From Nereocystis luetkeana (Eukaryota > Sar > Phaeophyceae > Laminariales > Laminariaceae), in the NCBI GenBank assembly GCA_031213475.1, contig JARUPZ010000017.1, positions 9,437,587-9,501,586 of the forward strand: a DNA stretch of 64,000 nucleotides, in the 5' to 3' direction. Each line of letters starts with the position of its first letter. Position 1 is the first letter of the stretch. The position numbers and the translations under genes are program-made. Below the pieces are notes generated by a model. It did not search any database. It saw only the letters and a program-made list of their open reading frames with translations, and was not told where the DNA came from. This document shows positions 2,005 to 60,430 of the stretch, piece by piece.

Positions 2005-2149
2005 GTGAGTGTAGGTGCTATTACATATGATTTCCAAATACCTCTTATACCCTGGATAATGCCCTGTTACATACCTGGTACCAGGTATAGGCTATTGGAC
2101 GTCCAATATGTCGAACAAAAAGGGTATCGATACGTACTGCGGGCCATAA

Positions 2150-3090
2150 TCGGTTGGTTTCAGAGCACGAGCCTGCTCTGCTTGTTTCGTATTGTCTGAC
2201 GCCAAGGGGCTGGGCATAGTTGACGAACGCAGGGCGGAGACGGCAGTCTGGGTAGCAAGGTACCAGGCGGATTAGCAGGGAGAACCTGGCTATATACTAC
2301 GCGTACCACAAACTGCTGCGGCTGCCTCGAGGGAGCTTTGGGCTTTGGTCTGCCTGTTATTTTCCTTTCGTCGTTTTTCCTTGGTTCTTTGTCTTAGGTT
2401 CATTCTTATCGGAGAGCGTTTTTTCCATAATTTCCAAAGTTTGGAAATAATTGGAGATATGTATCAATATACGGAGGCGTTCTGTCATTATATGTGAAAT
2501 TCTCCAGAACCAAAAATATCAAGTTCGTTAACATTCCAATATTTGGAAAAAGAAAACAGGAAAAGATGGAAGATTGAAAAATTGCCCGAAAACAATGTCG
2601 TAAATTTGGAAAAAAAAAACTCTCCGATAAGAATGACGTTTACTCCGTTTACAAGTAGTGGTGCTTTTGTTATTTATTTATTTTTCCCGCTCGTCCTTTT
2701 TTAAGTGCCTGCCACTTCGCCTGCGGGGGGGGGGGACGACGACAGTTTGTTTCTTCTATACCTGGTATATATATTTTCATTCATTTTTTTTTTCTTCTCT
2801 TTCGGATTGTCTTCTTTGTTTTCGTTATCTCTTCGATTGTTTCCTTGCGTTTCTCTACATAGAAAGTGTATGTTGTGTCTGTCGTATCTAGTATGATGGC
2901 ATGACATTTCATTGCCCACTGTTGTGCTTACCGCATACCTGGTACGTGGCAACGTAGTATCTCTGTGGCGTAGCTTTGTGACCACATAACTTGTAGTTCT
3001 TCTAGGATTGAAGAATCGGCACGGACACTGGTTGTGCTGGATGTCGACGTGTAGAAAGAACGGTTTAATGTGAAGAGCACACACACATAT
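2150..3090. repeat. Dispersed repeat R1, copy 1
   Basis: Shares long stretches with 60955-61545: for example the block beginning TGTCTGACGCCAA (2196 and about 61000), the block after AAGTAGTGGTG, and the block starting CATTGCCCACT through GAAAGAACGGTT. Similarity looks like 80-90 percent with small indels. Copy 1 additionally carries a 243 bp MITE (2397-2639) and TA-CCTGG-TA insertions. A shorter, more diverged inverted relative lies near 52700-52800. On the minus strand the repeats share a short peptide pattern (LHIKPFFL), hinting at an eroded coding region, but no family was recognised. Confidence 0.75.
2397..2639. mobile_element. MITE with CTTATCGGAGAG inverted ends, copy 1
   Basis: The ends are inverted repeats: GGTTCATTCTTATCGGAGAG on the left and, read on the other strand, ACGTCATTCTTATCGGAGAG on the right. 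It interrupts repeat R1. The uninterrupted copy at 61134-61136 has a single TTA where this copy has TTA on both sides (2394-2396 and 2640-2642), so the target duplication is TTA, the hallmark of PIF/Harbinger elements. The 243 bp interior is AT-rich and non-coding. A second copy in the opposite orientation lies at 35818-36072. Confidence 0.85.
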
Positions 3091-3189
3091 CGATAGGTAT
3101 TGCAAGCCCCCATAGAGTTGCAAGTCAGCGCAATAGGCTACTGCTGTGCGACCGATAAGTTTGTAAAAGTCCCTATCGATAGGTTTCTT

Positions 3190-3900
3190 GTGTACCAATG
3201 GGGTATGCAGGTTTTTCCGAACAGGCTATCGATCTAACAATACCTTGATATCCCACTCAAACGATACCTATCGCTGAAACCGATAGTTATCTATTGATAC
3301 CGACCGATACCTGTTGATGCAAGCGATAGGTGTCTACTGATACTGACCGATACTTATTGTTGCAAGCGATGGGTGTCGATTGACATCGATCTATACCTGT
3401 TGATGCGAGCGATAGGTGTCTGTTGACACCAACCGACACCTATTGTTGCAAGCGATAGGTGTATATTGATATAGACTGATACCTATTGCTGTAAGCGGTA
3501 GGTTTCTATCGAAGCGATCGCCACCTATTGCTGCAAACGGTAGGTTTCCATTAATTTCGACCGATACCTATTGCTGCAAGGGAATAGGTGTCTATTGATG
3601 GCGATCGATACCGATCGCTGCAAGCGATGAGTGTTTATTGAACCAGGCCGATGCCTATTGCTTCAAGCGATAGGTGCATATTTATACGGACCGATGTCTT
3701 TAGCTAATAATGCTGCAAGCGATAGGTGTTTATTGATCCAGATCAATACTTATCGCGATACTTATTGCTGCACGCGATAGGTGTCTGTTGATACCGATCG
3801 ACTCCCTTATGTTGCCGATCCACTCCCTATTGTTGCAAGTTGCAAGCGATAGGTGCGCAATGGTATCGGGCGACAATTACTGCACATTTTAATAGGTCTG
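3190..3900. repeat. Degenerate satellite, about 55-65 bp units
   Basis: About twelve diverged head-to-tail units built around GCAAGCGATAGGTGTCTATTG followed by ATACCGACCGATACCTATTG. Each unit contains an internal inverted pair (GATAGGT / ACCTATC-like). Units differ by substitutions and small indels, so the array is old. A related array lies at 12420-13135. Confidence 0.85.
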
Positions 3901-4375
3901 CGCATGTCAGTGCCCAGGTTCTTGCAATCTATATACGGCATCGATCAACACCTTTTGCCCTATTTATTTTGCTGTCAAGGTCATCGATTAATACAAATCC
4001 CAGCCCAGTAGGATTTCAAGCGTGCCTATCGATACCTTTTGTTCAGTTAAATAGGTTTACACAGGTATTCTTCCACGTTGGATTGTACCAACACGGTATA
4101 CACTTGAGTATTGCCTGACCCTATTACTCAATACATATATCCTCAACCCGATCGTTCTATTAAACACTTTGGATGATAACAATGTGTTGTGTCAAAACAA
4201 CAGAAGGTTGTACATCCCCAATATATTTTGCACGATCTATTCATACTACGTTCGCAAGGGTGCGGTGGTCGACACCCGTGGCTGTTACTGTTGCCGCATG
4301 GGAAAAGTCACCGACGTCTTATTTACCGCACGGGATACTTGTGAGTGCGCTGTGGTCCTCTCTGTATGACACGTG
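3900..4375. other. No feature recognised
   Basis: AT-rich sequence trailing off the satellite, with a few more GATAGGT/CGATACC-like words. Short open frames show no recognisable domain. Confidence 0.5.
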
Positions 4376-4439
4376 TGTCATGACCCCCCCCCCCCCCTCC
4401 GTCGAAACATATAGCAAAAGAAAATAGGAAAAGGTAAAG

Positions 4440-5492
4440 CACAAGTAGGCAAGATGGATGCGATCCTAGCAGACTCGCACCTTGACACCAGGATTAAGAG
4501 ATGTATACTGATGAATGTGATAGTACCAAAGCTAGAATATGCAGGAGAAGTACGGGAAGGGAATGCGAAACTCGTACAACAGTTGGAAACAATACAGATG
4601 ACAGCAGCTAAAAAATGCTAAGATGCTCAGGTACGACTAGTAATACAGTATTAAGAGCAGAACTGGGAATGCACCCACTGAAGACAAACAGGGATATGAG
4701 AAAGTTGAAAACGCAATATAAAGTCAGGAACATCCCAAAAACGAGGTTGCCAGCCATAGTTGATAGGATTGTATGGGACAAGAGTAATAAAGGGCGAGCT
4801 GGAATAAGACGGGGTAGCGTAGTTGAGAAAGTATGGAAGGATATAGGGGGAAACCAAGAAGAGGTGATGTTCGCCGGGAAGTTTGGGAAGCACAACGCAA
4901 AAGTAGAAGAAAATATAGAAAGAAGGAAAAAGGCTAGCGCTACGAAACAAGGTGGAATCGGAAAAACACCTAGAGATATACGGGGGATTGAGGGAAGGAA
5001 TAGGAATGAATACGTATATGCACAATGGAGTTCGCGAAAACGCTGCAGCTGCGCTTTCGTGTAGGTGACCTGGACCTGCCTAAATGAAGAACGAGGTATA
5101 CCAGTAGCCGGGAGGAGGAGGAAATAGATGCACAGATGTGCCCGTGTGGCAAAGCGATAGAGAGTAGAACTCACATAGTTGGAGAATGTGAAATATACAA
5201 GGAGGAACGGGATGTGTTAGAAGAGGAGATGAGGGAAATAGAAGAATGTGACATGGAGGAGTTTGACACACTAGATAGCAGCGAGAGAACGATCGCTATC
5301 CTAGGAGATAGATGGTGGCCACAGGCGGCCAGACAGGAAGGGGATAAGATTAGCAAAAGTTTCTATGTAGTATATGGAAACAACGTAATGAACGCCCAAT
5401 TGTTGGAGGTGTCTCTATTAGGAGAAGGAACGGTGCTCCGTTTCGAAAGGGATGCGTGGTCAATGGTCAAATGACTAAGGCAAGCAACAAAT
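4440..5492 (+). pseudogene. LINE reverse transcriptase C-terminal fragment (5'-truncated)
   Basis: The frames read a LINE thumb/C-terminal domain: HLDTRIKRCILMNVIVPKL, then a motif with KLKTQYKVRN and VVEKVWKDIGG, then a zinc-knuckle CPCGKAIESRTHIVGEC (about 5136-5190), the C..C....H...C terminus typical of several LINE clades. It ends at a TGA at 5490-5492 after KASNK. It is broken by frame changes near 4617, 5035 and 5360 and a stop near 5083. The fragment is flanked on both sides by a C-run followed by CTCCGTCG (about 4383-4408 and 5497-5516), possibly its target duplication. No catalytic YxDD motif is present. Confidence 0.8.
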
Positions 5493-5845
5493 GAGTACGC
5501 CCCCCCCCCCTCCGTCGGGGATTGTGGTCGTAATGGATACGTACGAGCTTGTTTTGTACGACAGGAAAACAGGAAATACACTTGTGTTGTCCCTCCTTCC
5601 TTGCTTGGTCATTGTAGAGGTAAAAACGCGTTATGGCCAATCGACCACTACTGCCATGCATGACAACGCCCCCCCCCCCCCCCAAGGCACGTGCCTGTCA
5701 ATAGAGATAAAACAGTAAAGTCAAGTACCCAGCTTTCGTTGATGAACTGGTCCCAAATCTGTCTCGTTGAAAAGCACTAGACGTGCGCGCTACCTACAGC
5801 TATCGGTGACAACCTGTACATACACAACTGCTCGCGACGTCGCAG
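5493..5845. other. C-runs and unclassified intronic sequence
   Basis: Two C-runs (about 5497-5510 and 5668-5683) with no recognised coding sequence. It ends at the CGCAG acceptor of the next hAT exon. Confidence 0.5.
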
Positions 5846-5993
5846 GTCAAGAGGATGATCGTCGAGCTTTACCCCGCCACCACAAAGAAGTTCAACGCCA
5901 CCCTGAAGGCGGAGATCCGTGATGCCCTCATCCCTAGTGTCTTCATTAACCGCGACCTGTGGCAGAGCAGAGTGTCAGGAGAGACGTATATCG
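5846..5993 (+). pseudogene. hAT transposase exon carrying the first catalytic Asp
   Basis: Acceptor CGCAG|GTC and donor ATC G|GTGAGT, ending in phase 1. Reads VKRMIVELYPATTKKFN, then NRDLWQSR, whose D corresponds to the first catalytic acid of hAT transposases. It joins in phase to 6142. Confidence 0.8.
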
Positions 5994-6141
5994 GTGAGTC
6001 TGTTTGTTTACGTTTTGAAAAGCCTTGAACAAAACCGTATACTCTTGTCTACTTTCTCGAAAGTCTTGAGCAAACCCTATAAATTGACGTCGGGATCTTC
6101 GGTAGCGCGACGTGACTCGCCTTTGTTTGAAATGTCCGCAG

Positions 6142-6512
6142 GTGTCCGTGTCTTCTTCATGGATCGGAACATGATCTTGAGGACGCACTTGCTGGGTGAA
6201 GCTTTTCAGGCCAGACCCGTCTCTCGGCAAGGCGAAGTGGTGATGGAGTGGCTTCGGCAAGTGCTGGCCCAGCATGGTGCACAGGAGAAGAACATCGCCG
6301 GCGCCGTGACGGACGCTGGATCCGATATCTCGACTGGAATGGGGCGTCAATTCAAGTGTGAGTGGTGCTTTCCTCACATGCTCAACCGTGTCACCATCGA
6401 CGGCACCGGCATGGCCAACTCACGTGGAGCTTCGAAGAACACCGACGGTCGCGACCGTTTCTATATGTGCAAGAAGGTTGTCGAGTACTTCAACAGGTCT
6501 ACTAGCAGCCAG
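6142..6512 (+). pseudogene. hAT transposase exon, catalytic core
   Basis: Starts in phase 1 after CCGCAG and ends in phase 0 at AGCCAG|GTATGT. Encodes FFMDRNMILRTHLLGEAF, then IAGAVTDAGSDIS with the second catalytic Asp, then CFPHMLNRVTIDGTGM. This is the RNase H-fold core of the hAT transposase. No internal stop. Confidence 0.85.
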
Positions 6513-8116
6513 GTATGTCGGCAACAAAATTACGGCATACCATGTCAAGTACGTCAGACCGATTTATGCTGTTGTTGATTGGGCAAAAATATAACTGGGC
6601 CTCTCATGTACCCGTGGCTAGAGACCTGACATAGCATTTATCTCCCTGATCGCGGCTGGCTAAGCAGAGTCGTGTACTAACGTTGTTCTTCCGATCATAT
6701 TCAACCCCTACCTCTCCCTCAATCCCAACGAAGTTCTTTTGTGCTAAAATCTGTACTAGTTACTAAGTTGCGGAATTGATTGCCTGCCCCGTTTGTTTCG
6801 GAAAAACGGACGACAGTCTCTTTTGTGATTTAAGTACTTACGGCCTAAATTAAGACCTTAATAATACCCTATGTTACCTATGAAAAATCAATAGCTGGGT
6901 GTGGCTTGGGGTTAGGCTCAGCAGCCAGTTTTGAAGGGTGAAATGAATGATGATTTTAGTGGTTATTTACGATTTTTTTACCGTACGAGTTTTGCTCTTG
7001 GAAACCGCACCGAAGGTTTTACGGCTTCGAAAGATCGCACCGAACCGCACCGTAGGGTGCACGACATATGAAAACTGCACTATACTCGTACCTTTTGCGA
7101 TTTGGTTACAGTAATGGATAATGGATTGTGCTGGCGCAAATGTAGGACATAATCGTACGTGCATTAAATCATCTTTCAAGCTATACAACCGATGTATTGT
7201 ATATAAAAGTACATACCTGGTACCAGGTATTATTTTTATATGATTACTTTACAGAGTATGTGAATAATCTTCCATCCCTGCAACCCCGAAAAATTGTTGA
7301 GATATAAATGAAGAAATTTAAATCAGAAAATTTACGTAGACCTAAAGTCATGTATGAGTTGTCGTGCGATCGAAAACCACATCCAATGCCGCTTTCAGCA
7401 TCGAGTATCGACCGATCGGGAGACGTCGCAAATGACGTAATTTATTAATACAAAAGTTAGCACTCGTACCCGGTAGCAAATGTGAAAAAGCGGTGATGAG
7501 GGTCTTCCTGCAGGGAGTCGAACTGCAAAACGAAACGTGTTTGACGTGAAACCGCGCCTTACGACTTGTGACTGGGGAAAATCGCACCGTAGGGATACAT
7601 CACGGCTCTAAACCGCACAGCGGGATTTTCGATATCCGAAAACCGCACCGAACCGGACCGTAACATATCCGATTTTGAAAATCCGCACCGAACCGGACCG
7701 TAACATATCCGATTTTGAAAATCCGCACCGTAGCATTCTTATTTAAAAAAAAAAACTCCGAACCGCACCGTACATAAAAGCCGTCGAACCGCATCGTAGG
7801 ATTTTCGATATCTGGAAACCGCACCAAACAGCAAAATCGAACGTTAGGAGGTCCGATGCACGATAAACCGCACGGTAGACGGACCTGTAACCGCAAATAA
7901 CCCTGTAAGTTTCGAGTTTCCTTGGCTACAGTAGAGCGCAGGTGCGGTTCAAACCAGCTAGTTTAAGCTCGCAAACGGCTGCGTAATTTATCATCTCTCA
8001 CATTGGTGACGTTACCACTACTGTGCTTTTAGGTACAGTCCAAAAACCAACGCGTGTTCGAATCTTCTGTGCATTTTTTTTTGTGCTGTCGTGCTCTCAA
8101 CCTTTGTGTCGTGCAG
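6513..8116 (+). other. Intron 3 of the hAT gene with CCGCACCG-rich repeats
   Basis: GTATGT to GTGCAG, 1.6 kb. Between about 6980 and 7890 the words AACCGCACCG and ACCGTA recur. A unit of about 48 bp is repeated exactly at 7646-7735. A tandem TACCTGGTACCAGGTA lies at 7214-7229 and a TACCCGGTA near 7466. No coding sequence recognised. Confidence 0.6.
7610..7740. repeat. Tandem repeat, about 48 bp unit
   Basis: The block CGCACCGAACCGGACCGTAA followed by CATATCCGATTTTGAAAATC occurs twice in direct succession, inside a wider field of CCGCACCG words. Recent local duplication within the hAT intron. Confidence 0.8.
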
Positions 8117-8300
8117 ATCCAGCTTGAAAATGAGGTCGAGATTCTCTCCGGCCGCAAGGAATCCAAGGCCGAACTATCGCAAGCCGTTGCCCAGCGCTGG
8201 ATCAGCACCTGCACGAGGCTGCTGCACCTGCTGCAAAAACTGTGATGCCCTCGAGACGTGTTACGTTCGCAAAGGAGACCCTTTCCCCCTGGCCAAGCTG
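8117..8300 (+). pseudogene. hAT transposase exon, RW-motif region
   Basis: After GTGCAG, phase 0: IQLENEVEIL, then QRWIST (hAT RW motif) and LLHLLQK. A one-base frame change near 8242 moves the conserved continuation ALETCYVRKGDPFPLAKL into the next frame. The donor is unclear, so the end is approximate. Confidence 0.75.
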
Positions 8301-9138
8301 AGAATTGAGCTAAGCTGCTGCGTGCTGACTGTTTGGAGGTTTCCTGTTCTCATGTCGGTTCGCCGACGGTGAATTATATTGCCCGTTTACGGCCCAAGCC
8401 GGCGTTCATAACGTGCTAAGATGTATGTACGCCGTGCCCTCATTATGAACACCCTTTAGTTCATGGCTGTAAAGACTCCATGGTTGTAACGTTGGCTTTC
8501 GACGGGATTTGAACTGATCCATTTCAGTTTGCTTGTGGGCAATGCATGCGGAGATAGCACTTCCAGATACATCGTGTTCCAAATTTACCATGTTGAACAA
8601 AAACGTTGATTGCTGCAAGCGATTCAAAGCGCACCAGCGCGCCGTTGCCTTTCGCTATTGGTGTGACGCATCTACTTAAACCCGAGGGATCACGATATCT
8701 GCCGGTTTTTATCCACCTTGGCAACTAATTCGGCGGAGCGTGTTCGGGAATAAAAACTCCTGAAAAAGACAGCGCATGCTTTAACGGCTCTGGGATGTTT
8801 GGGCGCGTTAACAACGATTGATTTGATTGATCCTACACCAGATATCGCCACAGTTCTTCGTTAAAACGTGAGGTATCTGATTGAACATTGTGCCATGTAC
8901 ATCTAACGCAGGGACGGCCACAAACAGATTAACCTGCACTATAAAAAAGGCATAATATTCACGAACGAAAGAATAAGCCTTGCAGAACAAAATTGGTTCG
9001 CTACGTATTACGCTCTGGGAACGGTGAAACGTTTTCTGTGGCCGACATCAAAATGACTCCTTCTTTCTCTCGAGTGTGATTTTTCAAAATTACTTCTTCT
9101 TCCTCTAGTGTGTCTTACCAGTATACATTTAGTTTCAG
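8300..9138 (+). other. Presumed hAT intron, nothing else recognised
   Basis: Short frames on both strands have no recognisable domain. It ends in a plausible acceptor, TTTCAG at 9133-9138. Confidence 0.4.
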
Positions 9139-9864
9139 GAGGTGTACCGCATCCAGTAGATGATCAAGGACGCCAACCTGTACTGCCAAACTACGCACGA
9201 GTCTACCGCAGAAGGGGGGCTGCAGAGGGTTTTCCTGCTCCTGACCCACACCCTCGAGCCGACCAAACCACTCTAGGATCTGCACGTGCCGACCATCGGT
9301 CGGGAGGACGCGGACGCCTCATCGGAGACCTTCTGACCCCACCACGCGCTGACTGACATCGGCCGGAAACTCGTGACTTTTTCAATGCAGCCCTCGCAAA
9401 GGGGTTCCTGCCGCGCTACGGGGAAGCTCTGAAGAGCCGTACGCATCTATTCGACCACGCCATGCTTCTCAACCCGCGCAAGTTGAAGTACATCGAGCTG
9501 CTGCTATCGTCGACCGCCGGCAAGACCACCCACTTGGCGACAGCGTCGGAGGTCAAGAGAAAGATCAACGCGGAAGTCATCGCCATGCTTACTGCGGTCA
9601 TCGTCGAGATAAGTGCAACGGCAAAGACGGCGGCAGTAGGAGGGGTGGACGCGGGTCCAGTGCAGGGGGGGGGGGGCGGCTTCGACGGGGCAGCGGCCGA
9701 AAACCCCGCAGGCCGCCGCCGCAGCAAGCCACAACGCCAACCGGATCAAAGGCGCGGGCGTATTCGATGACAGCGACGACAGCGGCGTTGATCTCGAGTC
9801 TCCAGGCGAACGTGCTCCTAAAGAAGAGGACAAATCCCTTCGCGAGGCCTGGCTGGCTCTGAAG
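9139..9864 (+). pseudogene. hAT transposase exon, C-terminal half, with several stops
   Basis: Reads EVYRIQ, MIKDANLYCQTTHES, LQRVFLLLTHTLEPTKPL in one frame with three in-frame stops, then shifts frame near 9385 to AALAKGFLPRYGEAL and LLNPRKLKYIELLL. A run of eleven or twelve Gs near 9665-9677 moves the frame again to DDSDDSGVDLESPGERAP and SLREAWLALK, ending at AAG|GTACG. The order matches the hAT region between the RW motif and the dimerisation domain. Confidence 0.75.
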
Positions 9865-11377
9865 GTACGAATTCAGGTGTGCACTCGTGCGAGTACACGA
9901 CATTTAGGAATTTCGCAAATATGCCTAGACACCAGCTACTCGTGTGTTGAGTTGCTTAGCAAAAGTAAAGAATTGAGCTTTTGTTGTGCTAGCAAAGTAA
10001 TTTCCTTGCGAAAGTTGGATGTGTTTCGTACGCGTAATACCTTCGGTTTCATTTTTTTGTTGTTAACCTTTGATTCCGTCTTTTACTGGTTTGGAATACA
10101 CCGTGGTTACTAAACACGAAACGTCTTAACTACGACGAGTTGGGTTAGACGCATCGCCCCAATAGTCGTCGGCCACGACTGCCGCACAGTACGAGTACAC
10201 TGGTAGCAACTAGATCGATACATATTTGGTATCGTACTGGCTGCCATGGGCAGTGAAAGAGGGTGACATAACCAGTTTGTTTGGCAAGGCCAGGCCTTGC
10301 GTTAGCACCTGATCATGTCCCGACCAGTCGGAGACCTGTAACGATAGGTAAAAACAAACATAAACCTCACTATTTTTTAGTGAGCGAGCCGTTTCCAGGT
10401 CGCGCAGGATGTAGTCTTTAAAATGTTTTGGCGCAGCCACTCGAACAGCTGTCAGGCCATAGTGTACCCCCATATTCGAATGTACACTGAATCTAAGCCA
10501 TTACTAGGTGATGCAGTACAAACGTTATCGTACAAAAGTCAAAATGTCCATTCCTTTTCAATACGCGGAACATTTGCGTGCGTGTTGTAGTGCCCCGTCA
10601 ATCTTTGCTAGTTGTGTTTTCGCTGGGAATGTAGGCGCCGTGAAACGATTTATTCTTGGGGCACTTTCTCTCGTGGTATTCCTTTTGTTCAAAATAAGAA
10701 AAACTGAAATTATGGTGTATCATCTGTTTAATTCAACATAGGGTAAATGTATCAGTCAACAGGAAAAATGTCAGGAACGCTTTGCACCCACGCTTTGAAA
10801 GGAAAACGCGGGTAAACCTGTAAAATACAAAACGCACGTATCTAAAGTCAAGCAAAAATACGCAAAACGTATAGCGATAACGCTTCCATCAAAATTGGTG
10901 CAAACTCCAGCAGTTGCCCCCCAAAACGTGGGCTCAGCACACGGGGAGCTGATTCCGACCCTTACACAAAACTAGACGATATCTAAACTTGTTGTGAGAG
11001 CAAAACATGTTAACCATTTAAATGGGCAACGGGTCGGCACGGGCTCATAAAACGCGTGTGTCACAAACCAGAAACCGTCTCGAAAAAGCAGCATGGAGTT
11101 TTCCGATTGTTTTGGGTATATCTTGGGCGGTGAGCTCAGCCTGCATAAAAAACAAACACCGGTAGTAGGTTGTAACAGATGCTGTATTCGTGCACTCGTA
11201 CCTGGTTTGTTCGTTTTTCCATCTCGTGTTATTGTACCATGTTCTAGTGCTTCCTTCGAAGTATGTAGTTGTTTTATTCACAGCCTATGACTCTCCTGCC
11301 GCCGCCCACTTTCTATTTTTTTGCGTCGCGGGGTAGATCCCCCCCACCGAACGGGGAACGAACACCACCGACTGCAG
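9865..11377 (+). other. Presumed hAT intron, nothing else recognised
   Basis: GTACGA to ACTGCAG, 1.5 kb, ordinary AT-rich sequence. I looked for repeats and coding similarity and found none that I would defend. Confidence 0.5.
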
Positions 11378-12420: not shown

Positions 12421-13135
12421 TGCTAGTGGTATTGATTGGCAAATCTCGCATTTTAGCCACAGCCATAGGCATCGGTCGACAGTGTCACGTACCATTTAAT
12501 CGTAAATGGGTATTAGTCGATGAAGCACAATCAAATTAGTCTAAGCAATGGGTATCGATCGACAATTTGATATATATATATATATATTATATATATATAT
12601 ATATCGGTCAAGTCAAGAAGCATCGATCGACAAATGCGTCACCTATTAGTCATGTCAACAGGCATCGAGCGACAAGCGCATGCTCAAATCGACTAAGTGC
12701 TATACCTATTAATCAAATCAATAGGCATCGAACGACTAAGTGGCATACCTATTAACTGAATCACTAGGCACCGATCGACCAAGTGGTATGCCTGGTACCT
12801 CTTAGTCAGATCAATAGGCATCGATCGACAAGGTGACACTCCTATTGGACTCAACAATACCTATCGATTGGCAATGTAACAGACCTATTGCACGAACAGC
12901 AGCCTATTGGGCCGATCAATCAAAACATATTGGTCAAAGAAATAGGTATCGATAGACGGTTTGAGATACCTATCCCAAGGTCAGTAGCCTATTGCACACA
13001 TGTTCCAACATATATTTGTCGAACTAATAGGTACCGATCGACAAGTTCGCACACCTATTGGGCACGACAATAGGTATCGACATGTATTACCCAAACCTAT
13101 TGAGACATCAATAAGCCTATTCAATAAACTATTGT
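12420..13135. repeat. Degenerate satellite related to the 3.2-3.9 kb array
   Basis: About a dozen units of 50-65 bp built on ATAGGCATCGATCGACAAG and CACCTATTAGTC, including an (AT)n tract at 12567-12604. The words AATAGG, ATCGAT and ACCTAT are shared with the first array. Arm-like complementary words inside each unit could form small hairpins. Confidence 0.85.
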
Positions 13136-13199: not shown

Positions 13200-16100
13200 C
13201 GAGCGTGCATGAAGAGGCAGCAACTGCTCCCTAACCTTTTGAAAGGAAGACATACATACACTTGGTGTCGGCGTGGCACGGCAAGAGGGATCAGGCCAAC
13301 GAGGGGGCGTGTCGAGGTGCGGTAGCTGCTGCTGCTGCTACTGCAGTTGATGCCGCTACTGCTTTGGATGAGAAAAACGCTGGTGCTCTTGTTGCGGTTG
13401 CTACTGGTGCAGCCGATGAAATTGCTGGAGGTGAGGATGAGGGGTGTGTGGAGATTGCTGCTATTGGCGAGGGAGCAAGGGCAATACAACGTGGGATTAG
13501 GGGTCAGCAGGTGGGATCGCGAATGAGCTTGTCGTGGTGCCGATATCTGTGGCAGACCAGACAAAACAAACTATCCTTCGTATAAATACGATAATCGAGA
13601 AGCTGGCGGTTACGCATCTGGTGGTTCAAGGGTTGACTGAGGAACAACCGGGAGTTGGAGTGGGGGGTCAACTGGCGGGGGGTGGGGGGGGAGGGGCATC
13701 TCATGTAAACGGGGTGGCTGTTTTTCCTACTATGATACAAATGAGACCATCGAAGAAGCATCGACGGCAGAGCGTCGTAAGACAGTATGGAGCAAGGGTG
13801 GCACAATGCGCTTTGGTGCACTGTCAGCAGTCGTGCAATTGTTCGCCAAGGGGCTAATCCAAGATGTGCTCGGGGAGGATTTGATAGTGAACCCACGCTG
13901 TGTCGAAGGTCCCACGCTGTGTCGAAGATGCTAACAACGTGCTCTGGTATTTGCGTTGATCAGTTCGCGCCAAAGAAGGGGGTTTGAGGGGGTTCGGCGG
14001 AAAAAAGGACGCCGGTTGCAGCGAAGATGACCGTCTAATTACCGGTTTGTGACGCTGACAAGCAGCTCCGAGGTCGGTTCGGGAGCCTCCGCCCGGGACG
14101 GGTCGTTTCTGTACACAGAAATCCCCACAGCAGCACATACGTCACACCTAGTTTGGCAGAGAGAACAAGGGTACGACCAGCCACCCTTGCAGCAGTCAGA
14201 CGAACCCACGCTCGTTTCGGCAGACACGCGAGAGAGTATCGGGTCAGCACGTTCACGGCTTCCCAATGGGGAGTCGCGCAGTCGGAAACGATCAGACAGC
14301 ATGGTGCAGCAATGGCACGCAGGAAAAGAACTGCTGTATACGCTCGCCAACATTTGCACAACCGTGATAAGCGAGGCGTCGTCGGAGACGAATCTCGAGC
14401 AATAGGAGGATCTCTGGTTGCACCACCGATAGACCCCGTACACATGCAACGGTATTTCGGATACTTCAAAGGGTTCGGGGCAGTGGATGAGCTAGTCAGG
14501 TTAGTCACAGGAGGGGTATCTGTACACGCACCAGCGACGGGCGCAGATCTAGAGCGCGCATTACAGTACGGAAACCACCCCAGTGTCAACGAGCATTTCC
14601 CAGCGGTCTGGAAAAACACCGGCGAAGATGTAAGACGACAGAAATGCTTAGTCATAAAAAACTCAGTAGCGCACGAAATTCCCAATCTAACCCTAAGTTC
14701 CCGTTCGCGTCCGTCGTGACCGACAAGGTCAAGATCAAAAATGATTTATCGTTTGATGGGCAGCGTGGAGGGAGCAAAGGAGGGTTCAACGGAGATGCTG
14801 ACCCTGTCGCTGTTCCCCAATGCCTGTGCGCACACGCGCTGCCCAAGTTTCTTGACGAACTCGCGGCACTGAGGAAGAAGTTCCCAGAAGAGAGGATACC
14901 GATGAGTAAGGCCGATGTGGCGGACGCCTTCAGGAACGTGCGGATCGACCCCGACCAAGCTCACAACTTTTGCTACACAGTAGTAGATCTGGTCGTGATT
15001 TATTTTCGATTAACCTTCGGATGGTCGGGATCGCCGGGTTTCTGGGGCGTCATGTCTGCCGCGGCCGAACACGCGCACTGCCACACCACTCTGATTTCGA
15101 CTCAGCTATCAGACGAAGGAAAATAAATGATGGTCCACGTTAAGGTGGTGGATCTATGGGAAGAGGATACACCCACGCCGTTTCCGTCGGACGCGAACGT
15201 CAGAGCGCACAGCGGGGGAGAGATTTCCGACCCATTTTTGCCACCCGTGTACGTAGACGACTATCTCTTATTCAGGGTACAACATTCAGATTGTATTGCC
15301 TCGGCCTCCATCGCTTCGGATCACGTGGCTCATTCGGACCGGGGGAGCCCATTTTAGCCCCGAAGAAGAGTACGGATTGGGGCTCCACGATTGACGCGTT
15401 AGGGTTCACTATCAATTCGCGCACAATGCGAATCTCGTCTCCGCGAGAAAAGGCCAACGATATAAAAAGGCTGATGCTTCACCAGTGGCCCTTGAGCAGA
15501 AGGCGAGCGTCGGCGAGGGACGTTCTCCGCGTGGCCGGGAAGTTGTGGAACCTCACGTACGAAGTGCGAGCGGGCAGGTATTTCGCATGGAGGCTGTTGC
15601 AACTGACCGGAATACACGACGCAAGCGCTAGAAATAAACAGAACCGCATGATAAAGCTTGGCAGAGAGTTTCATGCGGACCTCCTCTTTTGGTAGTGGGT
15701 GATAGATCACGAGCTGCTACTAGAGGGAGAGGCGCTTAGCGTGCCCTGCCACACGGCGATAAAAAGATCCGCCTAAAGACTTTATCTGTCTGACGCAAGT
15801 TTTGAAGCGGTGGGAGGATTTTGTGTTCAGAAGAAGGTATTTCGGAGATACGACTTGTCGACTGAGTTGACTGCAGAACTTAAAAGGAAAGCCGGCCTTC
15901 AGGAGATCTACACCATCACAATCAACCTCCTAGAGTTGTTGGGAATGGTTGTGACCTCGTGGGTGATGCTCGAATTGGTAGGAGACGGGCCAGGCGCGGC
16001 AGACGACTCGTTTCTGATGCGAGGCGATAACATGGCGGCCGTGTCGTGGGTGTCTCGGAGCGGTGGGGCCACAGACAAGAGGACCTGCCTACTCACGAGA

Positions 16101-19534: not shown

Positions 19535-20455
19535 CACACCTGTAGGATGTATGTTCATATGATATTCATACTGCTACCAGTCGAACTGTTCCTGGTAGGT
19601 CGTATGGCAAGAGCTCTCTGGATCCTCGGGCCTATCTCTCTTGCTTTCACGAGAGTGGAGACCTTCACCTTAGCCCCTACACATGTACAGGACTAAGTTT
19701 CCCTGACCACCGCAGCAAACTATCACACCGCTGCCTCCAAGCATGAAGCTGTGCAGTGCAAGCAGGTTATTATTTGGGTGAAAGAACCCTATGAAAGCTA
19801 CGTTGGAACTGAAAACTACACAATGGCAGCTTTTTTTTTTTTTTTTTTTTCTTATCCCACTCATTATCTTCGCACATCTTCTTCTTTCTCTTCCAACTCG
19901 TAACTCAGATCCGGGGTCACATAGCAGGCTCTTCTACCCCCTTCCCGCTACGGTACGTGCCTTCATTTTTATCGCGAGAAGATTTCAGCCTTTTCTTCCC
20001 TCGTCGACTCGCATCGAATTGTGCCTACCCACGCTGCAAGGCGCTCTCAACAATTGAATCCTTTTTTAATTTGCAAATAAAGTCGAAGTCCGACCCACCT
20101 GGGGCTCGAACCCAGGACTCAAACAAGTAGAATTCGAGGTTAACCACTTGAACCACCGGGGCGACCGGTCATGATATAGCTGGTGTTAGGGTCTTCTCGT
20201 ACCCGGTACGTTGGCGTTTCACTCGTTTTGCCCGTTTTGTTATTCTCGTACCCGGTACGTTGGCATTCCACTCGCTTTTCCCGGTATTGTCATCTGTCCT
20301 CGTACGTTCGCACTTTGCTTGCTTTACTCGTTAGGTTGGTTAAACATCATAATTCTGTCACTTATACTACCTGGTAAGTCAGAGGTGCCACTTGGTTGTA
20401 CTGATGTAGTTGGGCTTAAAAACGGTATAAACGGTGATGACACACATAGCTACCT
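19535..20455. repeat. Dispersed repeat R2, copy A (interrupted by a SINE)
   Basis: About 19535-19827 and 20170-20440 match 51010-51580 in the same orientation at high identity, for example from GATATTCATACTGCTA through GAAAACTACACAA and again from ATAGCTGGTGTTA through GGTTAAACATCATAATTCTG. The interruption is the SINE at 19828-20167. A TACCTGGTA at 20368-20376 corresponds to a plain TA in the other copy. Confidence 0.85.
19828..20167 (-). mobile_element. tRNA-derived SINE, copy 1
   Basis: Reading from 20167 leftwards: a tRNA-like head with an A box around GGTTCAAGTGGTTAACC and a B box GGTTCGAGCCC, a body of about 240 bp, and a 3' poly-A tail (a T-run of about 22 on the plus strand). Inserted in repeat R2. 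The head resembles a tRNA but is followed by a shared body, so it is a SINE and not a tRNA gene. A nearly identical copy is at 21439-21775. Confidence 0.9.
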
Positions 20456-21430: not shown

Positions 21431-21438
21431 TATAGCAT

Positions 21439-31650: not shown

Positions 31651-31699
31651 TGAGGCCTGGACCGTACCTTTCTCTTGGTCGTCGTCCCTTGCCCCACCC

Positions 31700-47456: not shown

Positions 47457-48500
47457 TCATGCGCCTGGGCAGGTACAGGTGGTGCAGGCGACACGCGTTG
47501 CCAGGTGACATTTCGCGTGATTAACATAGTACGTTGCCTCGTCAATACTCGTACTGAGTCTCGGGGGTAGTTGGGTGCAAGGCCAAGGTAAAAACATTCT
47601 CGTGCTTTCGCCTGTGACTTGCTTTCCCTCTTCACCTTGTAGTAGCCAGGCTTGAGGAAAGGTAGTAATACTACCGGGGGGGGGGCTACCATGCCACATC
47701 TCATGCGGCGACTCGCTCTCAGGGTTAGCTGTGGTTGCTGTGCGGTTCAAGGCGTCACACGCCCAGTGGGACGCTTCCGCCCACAATGACGCAGTGGCCG
47801 GGAGTTGCGCGCCGGGAAAAAGCTCTTTAGCCTGGATTCGGCCCGCCATTGCGGCCGTCTCGATCAAACCCAGCGCGCGCTCTGCTACTCCATTGAATTT
47901 GGGACTGTCGGCTGTCGTAAATTCCTGCTGGATCCCTCGTGATATACACAGGTCGCCAAACTTGCCCCCGCGGAATTCGCCACCTCCATCAGATCGGGCG
48001 ATTACCACCGTAGCAGGGACACCGTCAGCACGAGAATCCGCAAGGAACTGTTCGAACAATTCCGTGGCATCCGACTTGTGGCGCATAAAGTACACCCACG
48101 CATACCGTGACAAATCGTCGCGCACTACGAGAGTATACCGCTTCCTTCCGAGAGACTCTACCACCTTAGGCCCACTCAAATCCACAAAACCCTCCCAAGC
48201 TTCTTATCTTCTCGTGCGTGTGTGGACTGCTTGATGCCGTTGCGGAGACCCTTTGCCATGGAGCACCCTCTGCACTCCAGCAGCTCTCCCTCGAGGGCAA
48301 TCCTGTGCTGCTCCGCGGTCTTGCGAAATAGTACCTCGTGGGAGTGTCCAGCAGCGCAGTGAAAGTCATCGACCTTAATCGCAGACTTGTGGGGCGGTTG
48401 CCCCGGGGCGAGTACCTGGTACAGCACAGGCAGTTTCCCCACAACTACGGTCGACCCGGTAGCCGTACAGGCTGTAGAGGGTCCCACTCAGCGGAAACAC
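47457..48500 (-). pseudogene. Copia element 2: integrase part
   Basis: RKRYTLVVRDDLSRYAWVYF, RSDGGGEFRGGKFGDL and FNGVAERALGLIE; the HHCC-like region with CRGCSMAKGL lies upstream. Part of a broken element. Confidence 0.9.
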
Positions 48501-50499: not shown

Positions 50500-50749
50500 T
50501 GTTCGTAGAGTCCAAACCTGGATGCCCTGACTACCAAGTGGGCTGATGAGATTATTTATAGTCGTTGTGTTAGAGGACAGAGGAGGAGAGAGAAAGCGGA
50601 GCCTAGCTCGTACCTGGTAGCTCGGAGCGGAGAACGGAGTGCTCGAGCTCTCCTCTTGAGCACAAGGCAACATTCACATTAGCGCTTGAGAAGATATGCG
50701 CAACCCTCTACGAGTTGTAACCGTCGCTGCTGGAACGATTCAACAAACA
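50500..50749 (-). repeat. LTR of copia element 2 (right)
   Basis: 250 bp. Differs from the other three LTRs at many sites and contains an extra TA-CCTGG-TA (50611-50619) exactly where the others have a plain TA. Confidence 0.95.
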
Positions 50750-50945: not shown

Positions 50946-50959
50946 AAAACTTAACGAAG

Positions 50960-51585
50960 GTAGCACACGACTAAAATTGCACCTGGTAGGTCGTACAAAC
51001 GTACAAACACACACCTGGAGGATGTATGTGCATATGATATTCATACTGCTATCAGTCGAACTGTTCCTGGTAGGTCGTACGGCAAGAGCTCTCTGGATCA
51101 TCGGGCCTATCTCTCTTGAATTCACGAGAGTGGAGACCTTCACCTTAGCCCCTACACATGTACAGGGCTAAGTTTCCCTGACCACCGCAGCAAACTATCA
51201 CACCGCTGCCTCCCGGCATGAAGCTGTGCAGTGCAAGCAGGTTATTATTTGGGTGAAAGCACCCTATGAAAGCTACGTTGGAACTGAAAACTACACAACG
51301 GCAGCTAACATGTCAGGACATAGCTGGTGTTATGGTCTTCTCGTACCCGGTACGTTGGCGTTTCACTTGTTTTGCCCGTTTTGTTATTCTCGTACCCGGT
51401 ACGTTGGCATTCCACTCGCTTTTCCCGGTATTGTCGTCTGTCCCCGTACGTTCGCACGTCGCTTGCTTTACACGTTAGGTTGGTTAAACATCATAATTCT
51501 GTCACTTACTTATATTAAATCAGAGGTGCCACTTGGTTGTACTGATGTAGTTGGGTTTAAAAACGGTATATGACACACATATAAG
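50960..51585. repeat. Dispersed repeat R2, copy B
   Basis: Matches 19535-19827 plus 20170-20440 without the SINE, so it gives the empty site for that insertion. Contains two TACCCGGTA words (51351, 51395) shared with copy A. Confidence 0.85.
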
Positions 51586-52665
51586 AGTTACGAATCGTAT
51601 TCGAGGCCTCTCCATAAAGAAGTACAAAACGGGTTAGACATACGATCGCACGTTGTTCATGCTGACCGTAAAATATGTGTTATTTTAATCATTCACACAC
51701 TCAGGCGTGTACCGATTTATCTCCGATTCAGGACCCTTCGGCCAAGTTTTAAAAACGATGTTCCCCGGTAAGTTTGTGTGTTATCATGTTTTCGAGTTCT
51801 TCGTAAAAAGTATGATACGAGTAGAAAAAACAATCCCACTTTAAGAGCGAAAACTTCGTCGAACATCCTTTCTGGAGCTAGCTGTCGTTTTTCAGCTAGC
51901 ATCGGTATATATATCCTGTTCTTATACGTCGTATGGTACATTTAAAGTGCTATTAATAGTGTGTTTGTTTCCTGTTGTATAATACACCCCAGAATAATAT
52001 TTATTAACAAACAGCTTATCTCGTGTGTGCTCTTACTAAAAAAAGTGTATTTGGTCTGTTACCAGACGCAAAAAAAACACGCAAGACATCACACCCCCTA
52101 GGATGTGTTGACACAGTGATTTTCGCGACAACGATGAGGTTCGATTGCCGAGCGATGCTGCTACAGAGATATGTCAACAAGATGTTTCCCAGGGCCGCCA
52201 TGTTCGTCCTGTGTGCACCCCTGCGGCCTGCAGTACGTAGTCTCAGAGAGACACGTCTCGAAAACTCGTCGCATGCATTATCCTGATAGCATACGGTATG
52301 TATGTGCGTATACAAGTATGTACAAACCTGGTATAAAGTACAGACGCATGCTACAGTAGCGGTACGCAATTTGTTTTTGAGGCTCCTCACTCGAGGACCT
52401 CTAGACCTCACCCCTAAACTGACTTACTTGGAGAAAAATGAAGACGCAACTAACTCGATGAATAATTCCATATATATGGTCTAGGCACACCAAATGTGTC
52501 GTTTTGCAAATTTATAATGGCGTTCCGATGATTTTGGGCCCGTCACTCGGAAAATAAAACAGATAAATAAAAATTCAAATGTGTTTTTAATACCTCTATC
52601 GTAGAACGCGTATGCGTAGTAGGTACCTTGTAATTTGTTCTTAGCAGCAGTCGTGCTGTACTGTT
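51586..52665. other. No gene recognised
   Basis: AT-rich. Open frames at 51717-51941 (minus) and 52016-52411 (minus) have no recognisable family. Confidence 0.45.
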
Positions 52666-52669
52666 AACA

Positions 52670-53176
52670 TTGAGTTTCCCGTGTTTTTTATACACGCAAG
52701 CATCTATCTGTTGTCTTCACATTAAACCATTATTTCTACTCAGTTACATTAATTTAGCACACCCAGTGTTCGTCCTGGTTCCTTACCCAGCAGAGATACG
52801 TACTAATGATGCGGTCATAGACTGCTGTGATATAGAGAAGAGTAAATATATATACGAAAATAAATCATTAAGGGGGAACGCAGATGAAATAAATGTCAAC
52901 GTATCGGGTACGGGACCACAACAACACGAGCCAGACCAAAAATACACTGAGCACAAAAATAAGTATCAAACGAAACAGAGTACTGGCACAATTGACGCAA
53001 GGAGATCAGAACGGCCCAATGGAGGAACTACATACCAGTGCGGGCTCAATCAAGAAGGGACGAAAAACTGCTGCACGGATCAAGCAATACAATACAAAAG
53101 GGAGGGATTCACCGGCAGAAGGATGGCGGTGGGGCGAAGGAAACAAAGAGAAAACGAAGGACTAAAAGCAAAATAA
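52670..53176 (+). other. Unassigned open frame of 168 codons, partly repeat-derived
   Basis: The first 40 codons (CCLHIKPLFLLSY) are related to the minus-strand frame of repeat R1 (LHIKPFFLHVD), so this part is an inverted, diverged R1 fragment. The remainder is polar (Q, K, R, N rich) with no recognised domain. I do not assign a function; it may not be a gene. Confidence 0.3.
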
Positions 53177-56040: not shown

Positions 56041-56052
56041 GTCCACGGCACC

Positions 56053-56070: not shown

Positions 56071-56214
56071 ACACACACCTACTCCTTCGACTTGCCTGAT
56101 CCCCGGGAGCATAACACGTCAGACAGTACAACGGAAGTGCACGCTTTGTCATCGTGCCTCACGGGTAGAACAGGTCAATACACAGCTATACAAAGTCGTG
56201 ATGCGCAAGGGGCG

Positions 56215-56305: not shown

Positions 56306-57180
56306 GCTTGCTCTGCTTGCATGTCTGCTTCTTCAATCAACTGGATGCTCGTATACCGGCTTCCACTGTGCGTGCACACATGCTCCTTTCGCATTATCGA
56401 AAAGAGTGTATCTCTAATATACCTGTACACGTTCACAACAACTTTGTACTTTTGGGAGACATTGATACCACTTGTGCAACGTAATTTTCCAAGTCAAACC
56501 CATATGCGTATACCAACGTCTCGCCCACACGCACGCGCATATTGTACTGCTGCAATGTACTCCAACAAGCCACTACCGCTGTAAGTATACCAGATACGAG
56601 AAAGTCTTGTTGTCCTCGAAATTGCTGTAGGATCGCCTCGTCATTTGACAACCCTACATAAAATGTCGCCTGCGGAGGGTGGTTGTCTGTAGTAATATTT
56701 TTTGTCGATTATTTAAATTCAAAATGTCGAACAAATATTGGTACAGTACAAGTAGCATACGATTACGGCACAACTGCAGCGTGTGCACACATAAGTAGCA
56801 CAACAGAATCTCGAGGACGTGTGTTTTCGAAAAACCGTGGTTTCACTCAAAACGGCTCAACACAGCGACTAGGACGTACATGCAAAGATTAGGTAGTATA
56901 ATCAAGATACAATCTGGAAAATTATGCAACGTTGTGAATTCATCCCCGTTTTTATACTTGAAAATTACATGGAACACCCAACAATGCGGGCGAAATCGTA
57001 CAAGAGCTCGAATCGCGATCGACGCTGTACTGCGTTCGCTACGCCCTCCTGAAGAGAGACACCTCGTTTGTCTGTCGCATACACCACCATCTCGGCGCTA
57101 CCGGGTGCTACTGGTGGCGCCGTTGCTGTGGCGCTGCGCTCTCGGCGACGACGAAGGGAAGATACGCCAGAGGTGATGGC
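56305..57180. other. No gene recognised
   Basis: Mixed sequence with short frames only. Repeat ends of the downstream transposon may lie here but were not identified. Confidence 0.4.
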
Positions 57181-57183
57181 CAA

Positions 57184-58353
57184 CGACTGCACTTGGTAAA
57201 GAAGCAGAAGGCGGAGCAGATGAAAGCCGCAAGGCTCGCCAAGGCCACCGCTAAGGCTGCTGCCAAGGCAGCCGCCGAGGCTGCTGAGGCGGACTCCGAG
57301 GAACGCTGGCCGACTCGAGCCGTTGAGCAGGAAGAAGCGCGGCAGACGAAGCAGAAGCTGGCGCCTAAGAAAGGTGCTGTTTGACTACCGACGAATCTCG
57401 ACACATACTGATGCTGCATGAAACACTTGTTTTTTAAAGAGCGCTCGCTCTTCTGATGCAATGACGGACGTCTGTGATACGTTTTCGGTCGGACTCACCA
57501 AGGTCTGCAGCATCGTCAAGAAGTGGTGGTAAGAGGGCGAGGTGCGGCAAGGGTCTTCGGAGGGTCGCGGCCTTGCCAAGGATTCTGACAACGACAAGCA
57601 CCAGACTCTATCGAGCGCCAGGTTGGTGAACTTGCGCGAGTATATCGACTCGGAAAAAGACTCAGGCCGGCAGGTTTTCCGGCGCGGACTAAAACTGTGG
57701 ATAGCAGATAAGTGTGGAGTTACGATGTCATGTCAGGTTGTAGGTCGGCTGCTGTCCGCCACATCACTCTTCAACGCGACAGCAAGGCAAAGGTGTTCAA
57801 GGTGCCGCTGACGGGCTCGTTTCCGCATAAGAACTTCAAAGCTGGAGACGGGGTGAGCTCCGAAGAGGTGGCAGCAGAGGAGCGCGCTCAGTACATGCAG
57901 AAGGATCCCTACAAACTGCTGGAGAGGGCGGAGGCTTTCATGCGGGGGAGTGGGTGGGAGTTAATCTGGACGCCGCCCTGCATGCCACAGTTTCAGCCCA
58001 TCGACCTCTTCTGGCAGCATGGCAAGCAGTACCTCAGCTTGTGCTATGAACAGCGAAGAACCATCGCAACGGTGTGGAAGCAGATTTGGAAGGGGTGGCA
58101 CCGAGATTCAGAGTGGAACGGGCCGGAGGGGAGGGGGAGGAAGGCGGCATGCTGCGCCGATTTGGTGCGGCATTCTGAGGGCTGTATGAAGGAGTGGGTT
58201 GCACAGGACGAGGGTGGGTTCAGTCGTAAGATCGGCGATGAGAGCGTATCCAGTTCCTTTGTTGAAGACGACCTCATCGAAGGAAAGAACAAAGGCAACA
58301 CTGCTGAGCGGGTTGACACGGAAATGGAGTTGGATGGGTGGAGAGTGAAGTGA
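57184..58353 (+). pseudogene. Tc1/mariner-type (DDE_3) transposase, internally deleted
   Basis: An N-terminal basic, alanine-rich stretch (57193-57384), then after a frame change a helix-turn-helix-like region (VGLTKVCSIVKKWW at 57490, then NLREYIDSEKDSGRQVFRRG and WIADKCGVTMSCQVVGRLL). The end of the DDE domain follows in another frame: GSGWELIWTPPCMPQF, QPIDLFWQHGKQYLS (57950-58035), equivalent to the PPYSPDLNPIE..W motif. The stretch carrying the first two catalytic acids is missing between about 57770 and 57870. The C-terminal tail is acidic and ends at 58353. A DNA-transposon relic, non-functional. Confidence 0.7.
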
Positions 58354-59060
58354 ATGTACATTTCATGCGACCGGCGGCGGAGAGCAGAACACAGTGTGCT
58401 GCTGTGTTTGTACTGTAACTCGTCGACAATGACATGACAAACGAGCAACCGTCAAATACCGGTCGGGTACACTACAGTGGTGGGGCCTATAGAAGGCGAC
58501 CCCGTGCCAAGAAAGTTAGGTCACCTTATCTCGAGTGGTCGCCTTTTACGCTATTAACCATTTTAGAACCGCACTCCCATATGTGGGGACAAAACACTGT
58601 AGTTGTAGGTAGTTTGTTCCCAAAACGGAACTGGGGTCCTAAAAGGGTTAAGGCCGTTCCCGCGTTACTGAGGTGTTGAAATCCCCTGAATAAGGCGCGT
58701 ACCGCCCTATTCGGGGAATCATATGTTTTAGTGGGTAGTACAGTGTGCTATTAATACCAACCCGACATATGATCAGAGTGCTGCGCAGAGGGGGAGACTC
58801 GTGCTCGGGGACTACTGTGCCCAACCCAGCGAACACGTGTGATGTAAAACGCACACAATATCACACCAGAGTAGACAGATGAAAACACGTGTTTTATGTT
58901 ACGGAGTACTACTGTACCAGGTATTATATCATTAGAGCTGCATGCGACAGAGCCTGCTCAAGATGCGCACTTTCTGCTTCCGAACTGAAACGATTCTTCA
59001 CGCAGCCACACATCGAAGCCCAAACCGCGAGATATAATATATATTTTCGTACTACTGACT
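58354..59060. other. No gene recognised
   Basis: Contains a small inverted pair, AAGGCGACC (about 58494) and GGTCGCCTT (about 58537), that could form a hairpin, and a TACCAGGTA at 58915-58923. Possibly the 3' non-coding end of the mariner-like element. Confidence 0.4.
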
Positions 59061-59066
59061 GGAGCA

Positions 59067-59462
59067 CTACTGTGCTGTACTACCCCCCTCCCCACAAAAT
59101 TCCCTCACGTCTGCCTGTCGCACTGGAATAGAGGCATGCGCCTTGATGAACGGGATCCTGATCTTATGTAGATAGAAGGCATTGCCACGCGCCCCCGACG
59201 CGGTCTTCGGGAGATTGAAACGCAGCGAAAGCTCAGCGCAAGGCGGGGGGGCACGAACCCCATACGTTGTCGTGGTATCATCGCTGGCGCTCTTCGCCGC
59301 CTGTGTCTGCCATCTTGCGCTTGCCCGCCTTGTGCTTGCCCGTGACATCATTGGAAAATTGCTAGGCAGCACGACCATCATGACAGACGCGATGCATTGG
59401 GTTGTCCCAATCTGGGTCCGCTTCGCCACGAAACCCGTCAAGTCGGCCACAGCATTTTCCAC
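59067..59462 (-). other. Unassigned minus-strand open frame, 131 codons
   Basis: Reads MENAVADLTGFVAKRTQIGT and MMVVLPSNFPMMSRASTRR with mixed composition that looks protein-like, but I recognise no family. The neighbours are repeats; it could be the remnant of a transposon ORF1 or an exon. Low confidence that it is real. Confidence 0.25.
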
Positions 59463-59577
59463 GACATTCGTGGCCGTCAGGGTTCTCCCGCCGCACCGGC
59501 TATCGTGCCTATATCCACTGCTTGTTGTACTGTAGGCGTGTGTGTGTTCTTTCTCGCAGCAGCGGCGGCAACGGTTT

Positions 59578-59763
59578 GATATTTCTCTCAGAGGGAGCAG
59601 CAGCAGATCGAGGTTTTGTACTGACGTGGAGGCAGGAATGGGCCGTGAGTAAGGCGTATTACTTCCCAGCGGTGTGATATTTCTCTCAGAGGGAGCAGCA
59701 GCAGATCGAGGTTTTGTACTGACGTGGAGGAACGAATGGGCCGTGAGTAAGGCGTATTACTTC
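59578..59763. repeat. Tandem duplication, 98 bp unit, two copies
   Basis: GATATTTCTCTCAGAGGGAG begins both units (59578 and 59676), and they stay nearly identical to GGCGTATTACTTC. Only a few substitutions, so recent. Confidence 0.9.
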
Positions 59764-60430
59764 TTATATGTGTATTCAGACATAGCAGTCGTTCACAGCC
59801 GCGCAAATGTCTGATGTATTCCGATTGGTTGATTGGTGTGATCCATGTAGCGGCAAACCGCATCGTCCAACGGGCATATGCGGTGGATTTTGTGATTTCC
59901 CGGAGGGGTTGCGTAAAGATATATTTGAATGGTCTTCCAGTGTCACGGGGAAGATGAATGAGAGCCCCCTTGTCGGTTGGTGATAGCTAATGGGTGAAGA
60001 ATGTGAGTTTCAGCATCACGGTTTGCGTACCTGGCTATAAATGGCACCACGCACCTTGATTGTTTGAGTTTTTTTTGTTTTTCCTGGAATTATTGTTGTG
60101 GCAAATGGATGATTTTGAATTAGCATCTCTGTTTGCGTAAACATCACGCCTTCAATTTATTTGATTTTTTTTCTTTAGTCCTCAATCCACTATTAATAAT
60201 GGATGTACCTGATATGGAATGCGTGCGCACTATCTCTGGGTGGAATGCGCGTAGATTTTTCCAGTGAAAAATCCGTACAACGTACCTGGTATATATTTTC
60301 AAGTTTTTTATACTGTTTTACTAGGTATAAACTGTAAGCAAGAGCTTGCACACTGATGTCGAGTAGGGAAGAAGGACAGCAGCGGTATATACTACGTAGA
60401 GAATAGTAATAGTTGACATACTAGCCACCA
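59764..60430. other. No gene recognised
   Basis: AT-rich sequence; a TACCTGGTA at 60283-60291. No recognisable coding or repeat ends. Confidence 0.45.

Follow-up and report, generated by a model that had tools for sequence, protein, structure and literature searches.

The window examined here is a 64-kb stretch of contig JARUPZ010000017.1. It reads as nuclear eukaryotic DNA, with a GC content of about 51%, and carries 20 copies of the 9-base word TACCWGGTA (W being A or T). The word consists of a short core, CC and GG around a variable centre, between two TA dinucleotides; such TA-core-TA words are called units below. Repeats in the window include two copia-type elements (RVT_2, Retrotran_gag_2), the repeats R1 and R2, each in two copies, and large inverted repeats at 23189–26027 (2.8 kb, rich in units), 37892–38735 (0.84 kb) and 62193–62328 (136 bp at 97%). 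A Harbinger-type transposase gene is located at 41127–42140 (DDE_Tnp_4, E 9.6e-30).

Enrichment and core spectrum of the units

In 100 dinucleotide shuffles of the window, TACCWGGTA occurs 0.37 times on average and twice at most. A second-order Markov model predicts 0.52 copies, giving p 6e-25 for the 20 observed. Among the 140 distinct strand-collapsed five-base cores between two TAs, CCWGG ranks first with 20 occurrences, against 5 for the next best, and TACCWGGTA tops the over-represented 9-mers once simple repeats are set aside. The claim of an earlier note on this DNA, about 20 strongly enriched copies of the 9-mer, is therefore borne out. A count of TA-core-TA words of the kind that it proposed for the genome, run here on the window for five-base cores, places CCWGG far ahead of other cores, and the coordinates of the note are correct within a few bases (24703 instead of 24704, for example).

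Related words were also counted. Variants with TC for CC (TATCWGGTA or TACCWGATA) occur 8 times against about 0.9 expected, the CCGG-core site TACCGGTA 4 times against 0.77, and the CCCGG-core site TACCCGGTA 5 times against 0.39. The corrected positions of the CCCGG sites are 7467–7475, 20200–20208, 20249–20257, 51344–51352 and 51393–51401, the last four being in the two R2 copies. Those of the CCGG sites are 18954, 22029, 24697 and 54019, and that of the CCTTGG site is 24411. A CCAAGG site at 25784 and the TC variants were absent from the earlier list.

There are 32 sites of the form TACC(N0-2)GGTA in the window. The centre is A or T in 20 of them, C in 5, missing in 4 and AA or TT in 3; AT or TA is never found. 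The range of cores described earlier is supported by alignment for CCTTGG and, among the four CCGG sites, for that at 24697. On the other hand, the CCCGG sites belong mostly to one repeat family, and the three lone CCGG sites may be chance occurrences. Two of the three AA or TT centres are supported by alignment, the third (at 30774) being a substitution. A TC unit, too, looks like an insertion: at 25784–25807, CCAAGG and TCAGG units lie beside a TCTGG unit in one arm of the 2.8-kb palindrome, and the other arm has TCTGG alone. Some of the TC variants are paralogous, and one has a CC form as its counterpart in the opposite palindrome arm; part of them may therefore reflect decay. The local flanks were rejected as a template for the core, since one core recurs at unrelated loci. 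The resemblance to tRNA 3′ ends (TACCA, TGGTA) was set aside as probably coincidental.

With 30774 left out, the remaining 31 sites form 24 clusters with 7 joins. The flanks of the clusters are somewhat richer in AT than those of other TAs (0.60 versus 0.52 over 8 bases on each side, raw frequencies), and C is commoner at position −2 (0.42 versus 0.23, raw frequencies). A palindromic preference of the target TA gave no signal (z −0.27 to 1.2 over 20 loci, with four duplicate clusters excluded). As a control, nine stretches of viral_contigs (82,339 bases) matching the 16-base double unit were examined. The matches are isolated and were taken as chance, and one further TACCWGGTA was found beyond the matched places, about the chance level. 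No description of such units was found in the open-licence literature searched, and footprints are not mentioned in PMC3271037.

Filled and empty sites in repeated sequences

All 32 sites were aligned against the rest of the window for paralogous copies. A paralogous copy spans the site in 21 cases, nine sites have no paralog, and two (7214 and 7221) match their own reverse complement only. Of the 21 sites, nine are absent from the other copy, nine are present or nearly so in both, two are ambiguous and one is the substitution at 30774.

Six of the absent sites, at five loci, are clean, with a single TA in the other copy. In R1, the unit TACCTGGTA at 2936–2944 corresponds to GCATACGTGG in the paralog near 61402. 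In the 2.8-kb palindrome, a double unit (CCAGG and CCTTGG) at 24404–24420 is a 15-bp insertion relative to AAAATATGCC in the other arm, and the CCAAGG site at 25784 is also clean. In the copia elements, the internal unit at 48413–48421, which the earlier note had mentioned by context, is missing from the other copy (GAGTACAGC), and the unit at 50611–50619 in a long terminal repeat (LTR) is missing from the three other LTRs (CTCGTAGCTCGG). As three of the four LTRs are empty, the filled state at 50611 is derived by parsimony. In the empty copia copy, a frame is open through the site corresponding to 48413 (31183, within the open reading frame 30976–31998), and a 7-bp insert there would shift this frame. 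The first copia copy is flanked by AGTGG on both sides. No such five-base match flanks the second, whose right LTR has diverged more, so an identical origin of its two LTRs is not claimed.

The three other absent sites are at one locus, a triple unit (CCGG, CCTGG and CCAGG) at 24697–24718, which is missing from the other palindrome arm with a one-base shift. The TA is therefore duplicated around the core at five clean loci and one near-clean locus, as in a Tc1/mariner footprint. It had been proposed that a plain TA became TA-core-TA each time; this is shown at these six loci (24697 being off by one base), not at every site. The empty-site pairs listed earlier for 2936 and for the LTR at 50611 were recovered, and the large palindrome, where the earlier note had two such places, has clean sites at 24404 and 25784 and a shifted one at 24697. 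The pair for the unit at 20368–20376 was not, as the other R2 copy differs there with no clean insertion.

The sites found in both copies are the four CCCGG sites of R2, compared as paralogs, the double units at 23341–23356 and 25859–25874, and the unit at 38464–38472 in the second palindrome (other arm TATCAGGTA). The two double units are paired with each other across the left and right arms of the large palindrome, the second core having A instead of T in the right arm. Besides 20368, the ambiguous case is the unit TACCTGGTA at 2759–2767 in R1, absent from the paralog at 61238 in an alignment of low complexity. No paralog was found in the window for the double units TACCTGGTACCAGGTA at 2072–2087 and 7214–7229, the CCCGG site at 7467, or the units TACCAGGTA at 58915–58923 and TACCTGGTA at 60283–60291. 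The unit at 36038–36046 is inside or adjoining a repeat resembling a miniature inverted-repeat transposable element (MITE), and no alignment spans it.

Fifteen repeat-versus-repeat alignments contain 11 distinct indels of at least 7 bp, the largest being 19 bp; longer inserts break such alignments and hence are not among the 11. Units account for seven of these indels of 7–19 bp (one of them, at 2758, in low-complexity sequence), three resemble tandem duplications and one is of another kind. An insert of 7 bp puts a reading frame out of register. Single inserted units are 7–8 bp long with nothing inside, so that the unit itself is no MITE or other short transposon, which would have terminal inverted repeats around an internal region. 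A Harbinger footprint does not fit either: the target duplication here is the two-base TA, and that of Harbinger is the three-base TNA/ANT, according to the portion of PMC12477816 consulted.

Several other elements are located in the window. A frame with a THAP domain (37012–37743, E 6e-6) lies 3.4 kb before the DDE_Tnp_4 gene, and some frames look like DIRS-type reverse transcriptase and tyrosine recombinase. Frames 14491–15123, 15777–16337 and 62424–63095 have no match in Pfam. An element resembling a short interspersed element (SINE), headed by poly-T and partly tRNA-like in appearance, is present in two copies 92% alike (19831–20163 and 21438–21775); one of them interrupts R2, and the other R2 copy is empty there. 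The MITE-like repeat (about 2400–2640 and 35822–36070), with ends like CTTATCGGAGAG, is an insertion in R1 that the copy at 61124 lacks. A tandem array at 3262–3695 has about 10 copies of a 43-bp unit, and a second array of 43-bp period is at 12690–12793. Relatives of the copia, tyrosine-recombinase-like and transposase proteins were not found in viral_contigs, nor were relatives of the copia gag in genome_contigs. A 31-mer of the SINE has no match in either collection, the SINE has none in phages, and an Rfam search gave nothing reaching the gathering score. The mix of elements resembles that of the brown alga Ectocarpus as described in the consulted portion of PMC12477816, a likeness only.

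Proposed excision footprints and competing explanations

The units are read here, by a slender balance of probability, as excision footprints of a TA-targeting cut-and-paste DDE transposon, Tc1/mariner-like though not filed as a proven member of that superfamily, that left CC or CCW on each flank. Such an element would insert at TA and duplicate it. On excision, the strand with the 5′ end of the element would be cut 2–3 bases inside the element, leaving CC or CCW as a 3′ overhang on each flank, and end joining would give TA-CC(0–2 bases)GG-TA. With CCT and CCA ends, a one-base terminal overlap would produce CCTGG or CCAGG, and a filled join CCTTGG or CCAAGG. Alternatively, CC overhangs with one untemplated A would produce CCWGG, with two bases CCAAGG or CCTTGG, and with none CCGG. 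The two schemes yield the same set of products, and the data fit both alike. CCCGG is predicted by neither and would require other end letters or another added base; the TC variants fit slightly different transposon ends. Stacked units would represent repeated visits to an already scarred TA, and a hit-and-run cycle, in which the element inserts and soon leaves again, would account for the lack of resident copies. The scheme starts from the observed insertions, TA duplication, core spectrum and enrichment, and supposes a long element with such ends, overhangs of that length, a repair step of this kind and the hit-and-run cycle. Joined transposon ends at a duplicated TA would explain the position, the duplication, the symmetry and the variation of the centre by known chemistry.

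The footprint interpretation had been put forward in the earlier note, and the TA-duplicating insertions and the core pattern partly support it. The search for a parent element, the stacking and several comparisons with known transposons, described in this and the following two paragraphs, weigh against it. Pairs of TACC...GGTA with 16-base inverted ends at most 12 kb apart were searched for in the window, and outside the palindromes no parent element was found once units and R2 were set aside. Pairs inside the palindromes (23597–25600, 23780–25408, 24432–24775 and 37900–38727) were discounted because any TA there has an inverted partner and the repeat continues beyond the TA. Outside, six pairs have at most 4 mismatches in 16, against two in the control. 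Three arise from the units themselves, two from R2 repeats, and one (4033–10745) has 4 mismatches. The R2 pairs (one being 51393–52910) join TACCCGGTACGTTGGCAT of R2 to TACCCGATACGTTGACAT ending at 52910. An inverted R2-like fragment, with TACCCGATA replacing TACCCGGTA, is located at about 52870–52910, and as the match at 52910 extends outward past the TA, it is taken as one more inverted copy of an R2-like repeat and not as the end of an element. TA-flanked 26-base ends of any sequence gave three pairs outside the palindromes, against one in the control, none of them convincing. No longer repeated end was found, as 12-mers starting with TACC and present in at least three copies all contain the unit. 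The TA-flanked elements with CC and GG ends that the earlier note suggested looking for are thus not seen in the window, which has about 15 unit loci in 64 kb yet no resident element. A degraded, TA-flanked Tc1/mariner-like relic at 56742–59534, with 30-base ends (TACAGTACAA... and ...TTGTACTGTA) that are 73% complementary, contains a weak DDE_3 match at 57712–58350 (E 0.073, below the curated cut-off). It suggests that the superfamily is or was present in this genome. The relic was rejected as the source of the units, as its ends are CAGT and not CC. The DDE_Tnp_4 gene was also rejected, being of the Harbinger type with no clear ends.

The stacking is real, as the earlier note had it, but simple re-hitting of the same TA does not account for its extent. 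In 20,000 simulations of random hits on 3,090 TAs, the mean was 0.30 joins and the maximum 4, compared to the 7 observed (about 6 independent joins, as two stacked clusters are paired arms of one palindrome), and a plain footprint model by itself has no explanation for this. Ten of the 31 sites are within the 2.8-kb palindrome (4.4% of the window), which that model does not predict either. The palindrome has 7 arm-specific units, in 3 loci, for 56 substitutions (half of a doubled count of 112), versus 2 for 323 in the copia pair. Counted by loci, this excess has p 0.026, and counted by units 4e-5; the two pairs were chosen after seeing the data, and the value by units overstates the excess because stacked units are not independent.

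The core is 4–6 bp, mostly 5, and Tc1/mariner footprints are shorter, 2–4 bp, in the consulted text of PMC7913693. Mariner cuts in vivo two or three bases inside the element (from the portion of PMC2642840 consulted). Excision of Hsmar2 leaves non-canonical scars, an example of varied end joining, in the text available from PMC3770610; here, though end joining is usually varied, only 20368 is a candidate non-canonical scar.

A second explanation has the 7-bp unit made directly and never as part of a long element: an enzyme would open TA with a two-base stagger, add or capture CCWGG and reseal, the TA being copied by fill-in. Variants would be an ultrashort self-spreading insertion of an unfamiliar kind, or a transposase that joins nothing but trimmed fragments of the ends. 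The uniform size of the units, their stacking, their concentration in the palindrome and the lack of parent or partial elements in the window favour this explanation. In comparison, two joined transposon ends would produce just such a fixed CC..GG around a changing centre, and the TC variants suggest templated ends. We know of no enzyme that writes such TA-flanked units directly. We consider direct insertion possible but rather doubtful, and a shade more doubtful its fuller form, in which a TA-acting enzyme writes CCWGGTA units repeatedly at the same TA, prefers palindromic DNA and needs no resident transposon. Less probable again is the repair of TA breaks by end joining with no transposase, in which TA overhangs are filled and a polymerase adds C-rich bases. 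Centres of none, A/T and AA/TT do resemble untemplated addition of A, but CC and GG are too constant at unrelated loci for random additions and are not copied from the local flanks.

Two further explanations are very improbable. If the units were scars of programmed DNA elimination, with TA-bounded germline segments removed from the sequenced form of the genome, every element would be missing from the assembly, and the internal eliminated sequences of ciliates are indeed TA-bounded. Known TA-bounded elimination is precise, however, and the window has standard-code frames of up to 569 amino acids and retains its copia elements. An ordinary fixed motif, or chance, is hardly credible either. The CCCGG sites at 20200, 20249, 51344 and 51393 do belong to one repeat family, and the lone CCGG sites are near chance level; the CCWGG units are in unrelated contexts, with several missing from paralogous copies. 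As this is a single window, no firm choice is made between the explanations, and excision footprints are preferred with corresponding reserve.

If the window is typical, scars would be many times commoner than resident elements, because elements insert and leave quickly, because the family has vanished or because there never was a long element. If the units are footprints, the genome preserves a dense record of past transposon visits, and the window has no resident copy. Annotation that looks for element copies alone would miss such a record, and counts of TA-core-TA words could detect vanished or hit-and-run transposons. If no long element was involved in making the units, a type of mutation not recognised so far would be at work, and directly written units would be, to our knowledge, the smallest insertions to spread through a nuclear genome.

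Comparison with known transposon footprints

The canonical footprint of Sleeping Beauty, TAC(A/T)GTA, resembles the units in that two TAs enclose a pseudo-palindromic core centred on A/T. Its core is three bases, and CCWGG is five. The CC..GG core, with 0–2 bases between, fits joined transposon ends, with no cognate element found in the window. Mos1/mariner would share with the proposed transposon the TA target and an excision cut that lies two or three bases within the element, as given in the consulted portion of PMC2642840. The core of the units is unlike that of Mos1/mariner, and the window yielded no mariner with CC ends.

Stowaway, a Tc1/mariner MITE, leaves scars in Triticeae of 2–4 bp by one TA and 1–2 bp by the other, 3–6 bp in sum, and renewed insertion at an already scarred TA is on record (PMC1925063, in the portion consulted). 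In the same text the Stowaway element is present in relatives and there are several scars per site, whereas here no element is seen in the window and one core dominates many sites. If the units are footprints, the two systems would be alike in that two TAs at an empty site enclose short remnants of the element ends and, if the stacked units are repeated visits, in re-insertion at a scarred TA.

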